Source: Planctomycetota bacterium (lineage in GTDB: Bacteria; Planctomycetota; Phycisphaerae; Phycisphaerales; UBA1924). Taken from it: DNA of 49,067 nt. This document shows, piece by piece, positions 20,012-34,423 of this stretch. Each line of letters starts with the position of its first letter. Within the stretch, counting starts at the first letter, position 1. Position numbers and translations under genes: made by a program. Where the stretch lies: contig RFGI01000016.1 in NCBI GenBank assembly GCA_003696725.1, forward strand, positions 1-49,067. Direction: 5' to 3'. Under the pieces are notes generated by a model. The model did not search any database. It had not been told where the DNA came from and saw only the letters and a list, made by a program, of their open reading frames with translations.

Positions 20012-20045
20012 CCGGCCCGCCCTCCGAGGGGCGAGCCGGTTTTTT
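20012..20045 (+). terminator. Intrinsic terminator or attenuator between rpsJ and rplC
   Basis: CCGGC-C-CGCC (from 20012) pairs with GGCG-A-GCCGG (to 20039) with one mismatch and a small bulge, and six T's follow directly (20040-20045). It starts 11 nt after the rpsJ stop. The strength suggests that many transcripts end here. Confidence 0.8.
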
Positions 20046-20809: not shown

Positions 20810-21036
20810 CCGCATCACAACCGGTGTGGCTCACCGAGCCGCGCCGGTGCGGAGTGATCGGTTTCGATCGGCGGGCGACAGGCGCCCGGCGGTCGGCCCG
20901 GGAGGTCCGGCGTCTCGCCGGAAACCGCCGGGCGCACACAGGAGCGGCACGTCGCCGAGTCAACGCCGGCGCGACCCCGAGTGTCGGGGCGAACCGGCCA
21001 CGGCGCCACCAGGCGACCGACGAGCGAGACAGACCC
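20810..21036. other. 227-nt gap between rplC and rplD with short inverted repeats
   Basis: This is unusually long for the S10 operon, where genes are normally 5-40 nt apart. The frame of rplD is open through most of it (from GTG 20824), but the translation is arginine-rich and unlike L4. It contains small hairpins such as GGGCG/CGCCC around 20873-20890 and GGCG/CGCC near 20910. It may be a structured leader acting on rplD. No gene is seen. Confidence 0.4.
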
Positions 21037-22945: not shown

Positions 22946-23227
22946 ATGGCACGCTCCCTCAAGAAAGGCCCGTTCGTGGATGAGAAGCTCTACCGCAAGG
23001 TGGAGACGCTCAGCCAGCAGAACAAGCGCGCCCCCATCCGGACGTGGGCCCGCCGGTGCACCATCGTGCCTGAGTTCGTCGGGCACACCTTCCAGGTCCA
23101 CAACGGGCGGGCGTTCCTGGAGGTCTTCGTCACCGAGGACATGGTGGGGCACAAGCTGGGCGAGTTCGCCCCCACGCGCCTGTTCCGCGGCCACACCAAC
23201 AAGAAGGAAGGGATCAAGGGCCGGTGA
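22946..23227 (+). CDS. rpsS: 30S ribosomal protein S19
   Basis: The 93-aa protein is S19 of the 30S head, which contacts S13 and the tRNA-bridging region. [42 protein letters not shown] and [12 protein letters not shown] are family signatures, and length is normal. GGAGGCGACCCACCC precedes the ATG. The order rplB-rpsS-rplV is the standard one. Confidence 0.97.
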
Positions 23228-23266
23228 CGCGAGGCCCGACCCGACGCCCGAGAGGTCAGACCCGAC

Positions 23267-23812
23267 GTGAAGATCAACCCTGACAGACTCAACGCCCGCA
23301 TCGCCCAGGCCGGCGCCGGCGCCGAGGATCTGGCCCGCGCCATGGCTCGGCCGGGGCTCTCGGCCGATGACGCGGCCCGCGCGATCGCCAACTGGCGCGT
23401 CGGCCGCAACCACCCGCGCGCCAAGGCCGCCGACGTCCGCGCCCTGGCCGAGGCGCTGTCCTGCCGGCCGGCGGACATCGCCCGTTTCGAGACCAAGGCC
23501 CGGTTCGTCCGGTCCAGCGCCCGCAAGGCGCGGCTGATGGCGGACCTGATCCGTGGGCGGCGCGTCGACGACGCGGTCACGCTCCTGGAGTTCAACCACC
23601 GCCGGGCCGCGACGATGGTGGTCAAGGCCCTCAAGACCGCGATCGCCGACGCGGAGCAGTCCGAGGCGGACATCGGCCGGCTGGTGGTCGCCGAATCGCG
23701 GGTCGACGGCGGGCCCATCATCAAGAGGTTCCGGCCCAAGGATCGCGGCCGGGCCCACCCCATCCGCAAGCGCACCAGCCACATCGTCGTCGGCGTCGAG
23801 GAGGCCGCCTGA
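23267..23812 (+). CDS. rplV: 50S ribosomal protein L22 with an N-terminal XRE-like helix-turn-helix domain
   Basis: The product has 181 aa, against about 110 for ordinary L22. Residues 75-181 are L22: ETKARFVRSSARKARLMADL, NHRRAATMVVKALKTA and the tunnel hairpin tip IIKRFRPKDRGRAHPIRKRTSHI. Residues 1-74 look like a Cro/XRE helix-turn-helix: LNARIAQAG, EDLARAMARPGLS, AIANWRVGRNHP and VRALAEALSCRPADI line up with the helices, the I..W..GR..P turn and the LA.AL segment of XRE repressors. The GTG at 23267 has AGAGG 11 nt upstream, and the stop overlaps the rpsC ATG. Inner ATGs (23341, 23536) have less support. A role in RNA or DNA binding, perhaps autoregulation, is an inference. Confidence 0.9.
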   Translation: MKINPDRLNARIAQAGAGAEDLARAMARPGLSADDAARAIANWRVGRNHPRAKAADVRALAEALSCRPADIARFETKARFVRSSARKARLMADLIRGRRVDDAVTLLEFNHRRAATMVVKALKTAIADAEQSEADIGRLVVAESRVDGGPIIKRFRPKDRGRAHPIRKRTSHIVVGVEEAA

Positions 23813-24510
23813 TGGGACAGAAGACGCACCCGTACGGCTTCCGCGTGGGGATCACCGAGCCCCACAAGAGCCGCTGGTACGCGCCCAAGGCGCTGTACGG
23901 CGAGCTGCTGGTGGAGGACTACCGCATCCGCGAGTTCGTGGACAAGAGGCTCAACCGCACGCCCCCGTTCGCCGCGGTCAGCGACATCCAGATCGAGCGG
24001 ACCCGCGAGGAGCTGAAGGTCATCGTGTCGACGGCCCGGCCGGGGCTCGTGATCGGGCCCAAGGGCGCCGAGGTCGACCGCCTGACGGAGGAGCTGCAGT
24101 ACCTCACGGGCCGGAAGGTCTCGATCGCGATCAACGAGATCAAGAACCCGGACATCACGGCCCAGCTCGTCGCCGAGGGCATCGCCGAGCAGCTCAAGAA
24201 GCGGGCGTCGTTCCGACGGATTGTGAAGATGCGGGCCGAGGCGGCCATGCAGAACGGCGCCCAGGGCGTGCGCATCCTGATCGCGGGGCGTCTGGGCGGC
24301 GCGGAGATGAGCCGCCGGCTGGACACCCGGCTGGGGCGCCTGCCGCTGTCGACGCTGCAGGCCAACATCGACTACGGCTTCGCGACCTCGTTCACGACCT
24401 ACGGCGCCCTGGGCGTCAAGGTCTGGGTCTTCCGCGGGATGTTCGGCGAGAACACCGACCCCGACCCGGCGCCGGGCGGGCGCCGGCCGCGGGCCCGGGG
24501 CCGGCGGTGA
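23812..24510 (+). CDS. rpsC: 30S ribosomal protein S3
   Basis: The 232-aa protein is S3 from the 30S head, lining the mRNA entry channel. GQKTHPYGFRVGI starts it, the KH domain has ARPGLVIGPKGAEVDRL, and the C-terminal domain has VRILIAGRLGGAEMSR and YGALGVKVWVF. The C-terminal tail is short and Arg/Pro-rich. The ATG shares its A with the rplV stop (TGATG), so it is translationally coupled to rplV. Confidence 0.97.
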   Translation: MGQKTHPYGFRVGITEPHKSRWYAPKALYGELLVEDYRIREFVDKRLNRTPPFAAVSDIQIERTREELKVIVSTARPGLVIGPKGAEVDRLTEELQYLTGRKVSIAINEIKNPDITAQLVAEGIAEQLKKRASFRRIVKMRAEAAMQNGAQGVRILIAGRLGGAEMSRRLDTRLGRLPLSTLQANIDYGFATSFTTYGALGVKVWVFRGMFGENTDPDPAPGGRRPRARGRR

Positions 24511-28598: not shown

Positions 28599-29213
28599 AT
28601 GGCAGAGCTGCTGGACGAAAAAACAAACCTCGAGAGCACGACCGTCGGCGTGTTCCGCACCGCCGCGACCGTCAAGGGCGGTCGCCGGTTCTCGTTCTCC
28701 TCGCTGGTCGTGGCGGGCAACCGCCGGGGCGAGGTCGGGATCGGGTACGGCAAGGCCAACCAGGTCCCGCCGGCGATCGAGAAGGCCCAGAAAGAGGCCA
28801 AGAAGTCTCTCCGCCCGGTCATGCTCCAGGGCGGGACCATCCCGCACGAGGTGGTGGGGCGTTTCGCCGCGTCGCGGGTCAAGCTCGCGCCGGCGTCGCC
28901 GGGCACAGGCGTGATCGCCGGCGCGGCCGTCCGCGCCGTCCTGGAGATGGCCGGCGTGACCGACTGCCTGACGAAGTGCTACGGCTCGACGAACAAACAG
29001 AACGTCGTCAAGGCGACGCTCGACGCCCTCTCCAGGCTGCGCACCAAGGCGGAGATCGAGTCGCTCCGCGGCGTGGAGGTCGGGATGACGGAGGTCGACG
29101 AGCGGCTGGCGCGGGCCGACACACTCGCCCCCGCCGAGCGAGAGCCGGGCCAAGCCGACGCCGGGCCGGGCGCCGACGAATCCTCTGAACCCACGGGAGC
29201 GCCGCAGCCATGA
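28599..29213 (+). CDS. rpsE: 30S ribosomal protein S5
   Basis: The 204-aa protein is S5, important for decoding accuracy. TVKGGRRFSFSSLVVAGNRRGEVGIGYGKANQVPPAIEKA and MLQGGTIPHEVVGRFAASRVKLAPASPGTGVIAGAAVRAVLEMAGVTD are the diagnostic S5 segments. It has a C-terminal acidic, proline-rich tail of about 30 residues (PGQADAGPGADESSEP) that most bacterial S5 lack. rpmD (L30) would normally come next but rplO follows at once with a 4-nt overlap. Confidence 0.97.
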   Translation: MAELLDEKTNLESTTVGVFRTAATVKGGRRFSFSSLVVAGNRRGEVGIGYGKANQVPPAIEKAQKEAKKSLRPVMLQGGTIPHEVVGRFAASRVKLAPASPGTGVIAGAAVRAVLEMAGVTDCLTKCYGSTNKQNVVKATLDALSRLRTKAEIESLRGVEVGMTEVDERLARADTLAPAEREPGQADAGPGADESSEPTGAPQP

Positions 29214-29827
29214 TGATCCACGAGATCACCGCCCAGGTCGGGCGCCATCGTCAGCGCAAGCGCGTCGGTCGCGGCCGCGCCAGCGGGCACGGCAAGACCT
29301 CCGGCCGAGGGCACAAAGGGGCCCAGAGCCGATCGGGGAACTCCACACGCCCGCAGTTCGAGGGCGGCTCCCTGCCGTACTTCCGCCGGATCCCGGTCCG
29401 CGGGTTTTCGAACGTCAAGTTCCGCACGCGGTTCTGGACGGTCAACCTGGGAGACGTGCTGGCGCACCCGTCGTTCGCCAAGGGCGGCGCCGTCACCAAG
29501 GACGCCCTGATCGACGCGGGTCTGATCCGCGACCACAGCCGACCCCTGAAGATCCTGGGCGATCTCAAGAACCACGCGGGCCAGGAGATCGCCGAGGTCT
29601 CCGTCGCCCTGGAGGTCGCCGCCGAACGCGTCACGAAGTCGGCCCGGGCGAAGATCGAGGCCGCCGGCGGGTCCGTCACCGAGACAGGCACCAGGCGGGA
29701 TCGGGTGCGCGGGATCGACCGGGCCTCGGGCGATCCGACGCCCAAGAACCTGACCAAGAAGCTCAAGCGCTCCAAGCCGCGTGTCGCCGCCGACGCCGGC
29801 GGGAAGAAGAAGAAAAAGAAGAAGTGA
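29210..29827 (+). CDS. rplO: 50S ribosomal protein L15 with a basic C-terminal extension
   Basis: The 205-aa product is L15 (about 145 aa in most bacteria). RKRVGRGRASGHGKTSGRGHKGAQSRSG, FEGGSLPYFRRIPVRGFSNV, and SVALEVAAERVTKSARAKIEAAGGSVTET are typical. A C-terminal extension of about 50 residues ends in GGKKKKKKK. The lysine run is encoded by an A-rich tract including AAGAAAAAGAAG, and the secY frame happens to be open through it, so slippage would join L15 to SecY; that is only a possibility. The ATG overlaps the rpsE stop; ATG 29213 is the alternative. Confidence 0.95.
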   Translation: MMIHEITAQVGRHRQRKRVGRGRASGHGKTSGRGHKGAQSRSGNSTRPQFEGGSLPYFRRIPVRGFSNVKFRTRFWTVNLGDVLAHPSFAKGGAVTKDALIDAGLIRDHSRPLKILGDLKNHAGQEIAEVSVALEVAAERVTKSARAKIEAAGGSVTETGTRRDRVRGIDRASGDPTPKNLTKKLKRSKPRVAADAGGKKKKKKK

Positions 29828-33844: not shown

Positions 33845-34423
33845 ATGCGGCATCGCAAGGCCGGCTACAAACTGGGGCGCACGACCGCGCACCGCACCTC
33901 GACGCTGCGCAACCTCGCGGCGGGGCTCTTCGAGCACGGGCAGATCACCACCACGATCCCCCGCGCCAAGGCCGTCCAGCCATTCGCCGAGCGGCTGATC
34001 ACGCTCGCCAAGCGCGGGGACCTGCACGCCCGGCGGCTGGCGGCGGCCAGGCTCAACGACCGCATCATGGCCTCCGACGAGGACGCCCTGGAGCGCAACC
34101 GCTACGGCGAGATCCGGAAAGGTCCCAAGCTCATCAAGCACCTCTTCGAAGAGATCGGCCCGCGCTTCAAGGACCGCCCCGGGGGCTACACCCGCATCGT
34201 CAAACTCGACAAGCGCCGGCTCGGCGACGGCGGGGCGCTGTGCGTCCTGCAGCTGGTGGGCGACGAGGAGGGCCCCGAGATCGGCGGGCGCGTGAGCGTC
34301 CGGCGGCGGATCGCCGACGGCCGGACCGAGTTCGCCGCCAAGCTCCGCAAGGCGGGCAAGGCCGCGAGCACCGCCCCGCCCGAGGCCGCCGCCGAACCTT
34401 CGGACGACGCCGCCGCCGGCTGA
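33845..34423 (+). CDS. rplQ: 50S ribosomal protein L17 with C-terminal extension
   Basis: The 192-aa protein is L17 (about 120-130 aa in E. coli). MRHRKAGYKLGRTTAHRTSTLRNLAAGLFEHGQITTTIPRAKAVQPFAERLITLAKRG is the conserved N-terminus, and GGYTRIVKLDKRRLGDGG the conserved C-terminal strand. An insertion between them (DALERNRYGEIRKGPKLIKH) and a 50-residue Ala/Glu-rich tail make it longer. It is the last gene of the infA unit. AAAGGACGGTGGACC precedes the ATG. Confidence 0.95.
   Translation: MRHRKAGYKLGRTTAHRTSTLRNLAAGLFEHGQITTTIPRAKAVQPFAERLITLAKRGDLHARRLAAARLNDRIMASDEDALERNRYGEIRKGPKLIKHLFEEIGPRFKDRPGGYTRIVKLDKRRLGDGGALCVLQLVGDEEGPEIGGRVSVRRRIADGRTEFAAKLRKAGKAASTAPPEAAAEPSDDAAAG

Follow-up and report, generated by a model that had tools for sequence, protein, structure and literature searches.

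A Cro/C1-type helix-turn-helix domain joined to the front of ribosomal protein L22 in Phycisphaerae

L22 is one of the most conserved ribosomal proteins; it lines the exit tunnel, and the ordinary bacterial form, of about 110 amino acids, begins directly at the L22 core. In the PRK12279/NF008917 fusion L22 is joined to another part, an unknown domain, which lies behind it, since the L22 part aligns with positions 9-106 of a model 311 positions long. In chloroplasts, uL22c is likewise enlarged by terminal extensions, although most chloroplast extensions are extended and poorly resolved, and not a folded helix-turn-helix (HTH) as in the protein described here (PMC5071890). An HTH of the Cro/C1 type that binds the ribosome is known from EDF1/Mbf1, where it sits between 18S helices h16 and h33 of the 40S subunit (PMC7486125). 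EDF1/Mbf1 and archaeal MBF1 thus resemble our protein in this domain, whose ribosome contact we infer in the L22 fusion, but they are separate small-subunit factors with a C-terminal HTH, whereas here the HTH is N-terminal and belongs to a large-subunit protein. No match to the MBF1 profile was found in the window protein or its relatives, and the protein starts with the HTH.

In the window, by which we mean the whole 49,067-nucleotide stretch of DNA analysed, rplV (positions 23267-23812, forward strand; GTG start, TGA stop) encodes a protein of 181 residues in which an HTH and L22 form a single open frame. A first, sequence-only reading had described a complete L22 core after 74 extra residues, and the curated cut-offs of both family profiles are indeed exceeded: PF00237 covers residues 77-177 with an E-value of 6e-33 (113.6 bits, cut-off 28) and TIGR01044 scores 110.2 bits (cut-off 73.65), the full core occupying residues 75-181 (23489-23812 with the stop, forward strand). 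As with other uL22 genes, rplV is present in a single copy, the sole L22 of the genome, within an ordinary S10 operon, between its usual upstream neighbour rpsS (22946-23227, forward strand) and rpsC (23812-24510, forward strand), which shares one base of its ATG with the rplV stop. Membership in PRK12279/NF008917 was rejected, the protein scoring 54.8 bits where the cut-off is 526, with a match confined to its L22 part. Two other ribosomal protein genes of the window also have long products, rplO (29210-29827; 205 amino acids, with an extra C-terminal part and a lysine-rich tail at its end) and rplQ (33845-34423; 192 amino acids, with an extra C-terminal part). The open-access full-text literature that we searched does not describe any L22 that bears an HTH domain, in agreement with the initial claim of novelty, yet the form is widespread and not specific to this genome. 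Databases may show this architecture, albeit undiscussed, because Pfam would flag HTH_31 together with Ribosomal_L22 in some relatives; as a ribosomal protein with a lineage-specific domain it belongs to a known kind, and it is unusual in the identity of that domain.

On combined profile and model evidence, the extension (residues 1-74; 23267-23488, forward strand) is a Cro/C1-type (XRE) HTH domain, as first proposed from the sequence. This identity rests on relatives, because the profile matches of the window protein alone are sub-threshold (HTH_26, E 0.03, 15.1 bits against a cut-off of 22; HTH_31, E 0.08). HTH_31 exceeds Pfam's own cut-off in two fusions of the same family (30.6 and 27.9 against 27 bits), and among the extensions of 26 relatives HTH_31 and HTH_26 were each matched in 18 and HTH_3 in 11. 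AlphaFold2, run on a 26-sequence alignment, gave a mean pLDDT of 91.9 and a whole-protein pTM of 0.83, with four helices in the extension (residues 5-15, 19-26, 33-44 and 54-63) at a pLDDT of 91-95 (93 for the domain modelled alone), so that structure prediction and profile search together describe a folded HTH and not an unfolded tail. Two of the outcomes that the sequence-only reading had named as refuting it, a lack of any HTH profile match and a plain unfolded extension, thus did not appear. In the model, strand 72-81 leads directly from the HTH into the L22 core with no flexible linker, and this continuity, together with the pTM of 0.83, suggests a fixed orientation of the two parts. Foldseek matched the domain to P22 c2, 434 Cro, C.AhdI, C.Csp231I, DdrO and HipB with TM-scores of about 0.6-0.7 and probabilities of 0.9-1.0; the E-values are weak, as is usual with a domain this short (0.02 and up, and 0.1 or higher for P22 c2, 434 Cro and others). 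With these proteins it shares the helical fold and the L-A, W-x-x-G and P signature; it differs from them in that helices 2 and 3 are linked by a longer turn, in the residue after the Trp, which is mostly Met and not the Glu of many XRE domains, in having no dimerisation part, and in being joined to a ribosomal protein. The top Foldseek rows are HEPD-type enzymes (HEPD/HppE) that hold a similar domain, which is not known to bind DNA there; the fold by itself is therefore no proof of nucleic-acid binding.

The extension does not arise from misannotation, and the start signals, reading frames and substitution patterns make its translation very probable. The GTG is preceded at 11 nt by a Shine-Dalgarno sequence, AGAGG (23251-23255, forward strand), and the only in-frame ATG, GTG or TTG codons that follow it, up to the middle of L22, encode Met26 and Met91, which lie within the HTH and within the L22 core, respectively; a plain L22 therefore cannot be started in the window, which is a stronger statement than the original one that no closer start was as good. 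Across 78 distinct fusions, drawn from the window's family (f1) and one sister family, a Shine-Dalgarno match of at least 4 nt precedes the fusion start in 71, against about 21% of random positions and 10 of 83 internal starts able to yield a plain L22, and the start codon lies 155-161 residues ahead of the conserved DRGR motif. The frame runs from HTH to L22 without a stop in all 79 loci read (L061-L139, some of them counted twice). Among all the fusions read, the sole interrupted frame is that of G039 (L196, family f4, a two-contig assembly), where a one-base shift lies inside the HTH extension of rplV and could be a sequencing error. The extension is under purifying selection: comparisons of close relatives gave it a median pN/pS of 0.23, against 0.12 for the core.

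The same extension, which the sequence-only reading had suggested looking for in other Phycisphaerae, is present in f1, in f4 of the same order and in seven further families of the class outside that order (f13, f18, f20, f23, f24, f26 and f27). In the window's family the domain was found in 152 of 163 sampled genomes, nearly always in a frame of L22 length, and each of the 11 genomes without a match is at most 88% complete; the named members that carry it are Phycisphaerales, Phycisphaeraceae or Phycisphaerae metagenome assemblies. Over the class Phycisphaerae as a whole the fusion occurs in 138 of 397 genomes, normally as one copy per genome; in the distant families the sequence was read at some 14 loci and the remaining cases rest on profile E-values and frame length. 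The complete genomes G057, G092, G098 and G103 are among those with the fusion. Weak profile matches in f2, f6 and f45 were discarded, as they lay outside L22-length frames or in families with a plain L22. No fusion was found outside the class among 392 genomes of the phylum Planctomycetota, and no free-standing copy of the domain was recognised in the genomes examined. The extensions fall into two class-level groups which, with a mutual HHalign probability of 99.6 (E 5e-25), are by sequence comparison homologous, and the trees of the domain and of the core divide into the same groups. A plain L22 is found in f2, f3, f5 and f6 of the same order and in many other families of the class. Because the tree of S10-region genes places the plain family f3 as sister to f1, and f4 weakly with f2, the distribution could reflect either one early gain followed by several losses, or transfer, or repeated gain. 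In addition, the L22 hairpin is longer in members of the second fusion group (L215-L224, L244-L251), where KDRGR is preceded by VDGAGRRIGTKAW and not by VDEGPTMKRF; this stretch belongs to the portion of L22 extending to the exit tunnel.

The conservation of the domain is uneven. Leu22, Trp43 and Pro50 are invariant over the 78 distinct fusions, and Asn42 (99%), Phe74 (99%) and Gly46 (95%) nearly so. Asn42 stands at a position that contacts bases in 434-type repressors, towards the end of helix 3 (residues 33-44; 23363-23398, forward strand), which occupies the place of the recognition helix and in which positions 33-35 and 37 are variable. The loop at residues 46-53 (23402-23425, forward strand) has the consensus GRDHPRCK, GRNHPRAK in the window, with a basic residue at 49, 51 and 53 in 91-92% of fusions, and the extension carries a mean net charge of +4.5. 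As signs of sequence-specific DNA binding, the conserved Asn42 and its variable neighbours are mixed. The combination of conservation and charge, an indirect indication, is easier to reconcile with retained contact to an acidic partner or to the backbone of a nucleic acid than with a conserved operator.

Our preferred reading, to which we give a probability of roughly 0.55, is that the HTH is a permanent ribosomal domain near the tunnel exit that holds rRNA or a partner. The product of rplV, a single polypeptide, would enter every large subunit as L22; the N-terminal HTH, joined to the first L22 strand, would remain on the solvent-facing surface close to where the peptide leaves the subunit, and the former DNA-binding face, with Asn42 and the basic GRxHPRxK loop, would grip the rRNA backbone or a ribosome-associated partner. 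What we infer is that the protein is incorporated into the ribosome, that the HTH lies close to the exit and that it touches RNA or a partner, and the position of the HTH on the subunit would follow by homology from other L22 proteins; uL22 borders the tunnel exit, which is ringed by uL22, uL23, uL24 and uL29 (PMC5071890). Several more specific roles were considered. Trigger factor and bL32 are both still present in all 33 genomes tested, so that neither is simply replaced by the HTH. A comparison of 23S rRNA by pattern search and alignment, in 17 fused and 13 plain genomes, revealed no change in length and no base that cleanly tracks the fusion; the idea that the HTH fills a lineage-specific change in rRNA was dropped, and a dedicated rRNA partner is therefore not visible, while binding of the HTH to rRNA is plausible. 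At the 23S rRNA loci L162-L181 and L255-L264 the region corresponding to E. coli nt 1501-1530 was some 10-12 nt shorter in f1, f2 and f4 and of E. coli length or more in f5, f6 and f8. Since the searches for a replaced protein, for an rRNA change, for an operator and for a target between rplC and rplD gave nothing linked to the fusion, a permanent ribosomal domain is the simplest reading, although several families have a plain L22 with no evident compensation, which speaks against it. The results suggest an ancient recruitment by which a repressor-type domain became a lasting component of the ribosome. If so, this would be a clear case in which a transcription-factor fold has entered the core of the ribosome, stably and from ancient times, in a whole bacterial group, comparable to the Cro/C1 domain with which EDF1/Mbf1 binds the ribosome. 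Because families with and without the domain coexist in one order, its role can be tested by comparison.

Among the alternatives, the domain could serve as a docking platform near the tunnel exit, binding a protein, membrane or nucleoid partner and not nucleic acid. The ring of proteins around the exit would suit such a role, as would the occurrence of the same fold in the HEPD/HppE enzymes matched by Foldseek, but the conserved face is basic and no candidate partner was found, trigger factor being present with and without the fusion. We regard this reading as unlikely.

That L22 of this form controls its own operon, as the sequence-only reading had suggested, was not supported. At the level of DNA, surplus HTH-L22 outside ribosomes would bind an operator and repress the S10 operon. 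In its favour, the domain folds like DNA-binding repressors, among them P22 c2, 434 Cro and DdrO, the protein is encoded within the operon that it would control, and Asn42 is almost invariant at a base-contacting position of 434-type repressors. Yet the 300 bp before rpsJ contain no shared word or inverted repeat clearly above shuffled sequence in 37 genomes, the most widely shared 10-mer being common to at most five of them against a shuffled maximum of 4, so that an operator upstream of rpsJ was rejected; residues of the recognition helix vary, the domain has no dimerisation part beyond the HTH helices, and a copy number on the scale of the ribosome would poorly suit a repressor. We consider repression of this kind quite improbable.

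Ribosomal proteins commonly repress their own synthesis by leader mimicry, and at the level of RNA the HTH could help L22 to bind a leader, for example the strongly conserved element in the gap between rplC and rplD (gap at 20810-21036 in the window). This non-coding element ahead of rplD consists of AAACCGCCGGGCGACAAC, a variable stretch and then GCCGAGTCGATTC; GCCGAGTC is present in the gap in 39 of the 41 genomes sampled from the family (at most 9 after shuffling), and no Rfam match was found for the element. A comparison at loci L061-L109 and L183-L199 showed CCGAGT to be absent from f8 and present in most genomes of f2-f6, whether or not their L22 carries the HTH. Because the element occurs in f2, f3, f5 and f6, whose L22 is plain, it does not need the HTH and was rejected as its target; on this distribution it is order-wide and independent of the fusion, and from its place directly ahead of rplD it is more likely to be a leader RNA for L4. 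Control through such an RNA is thus also a quite improbable function of the domain. In the rpsJ-rplC gap, a hairpin CCGGC...GCCGG followed by TTTTTT (20012-20045) resembles a terminator or attenuator within the operon, and the word CTTCCTCTGC is common to the gap in 11 of 42 relatives.

It is very unlikely that the HTH on each large subunit is functional in binding DNA, so that ribosomes engaged in translation could be tethered to the chromosome or to the operon that encodes them. Least probable of all is that the HTH is inert or removed, a relic of an old fusion that persists by chance or a part cleaved off after translation, as the absence or loss of the domain in several sister families might suggest, since the extension is under purifying selection, retains its invariant Leu, Trp and Pro, and has kept its start and spacing over two large clades.
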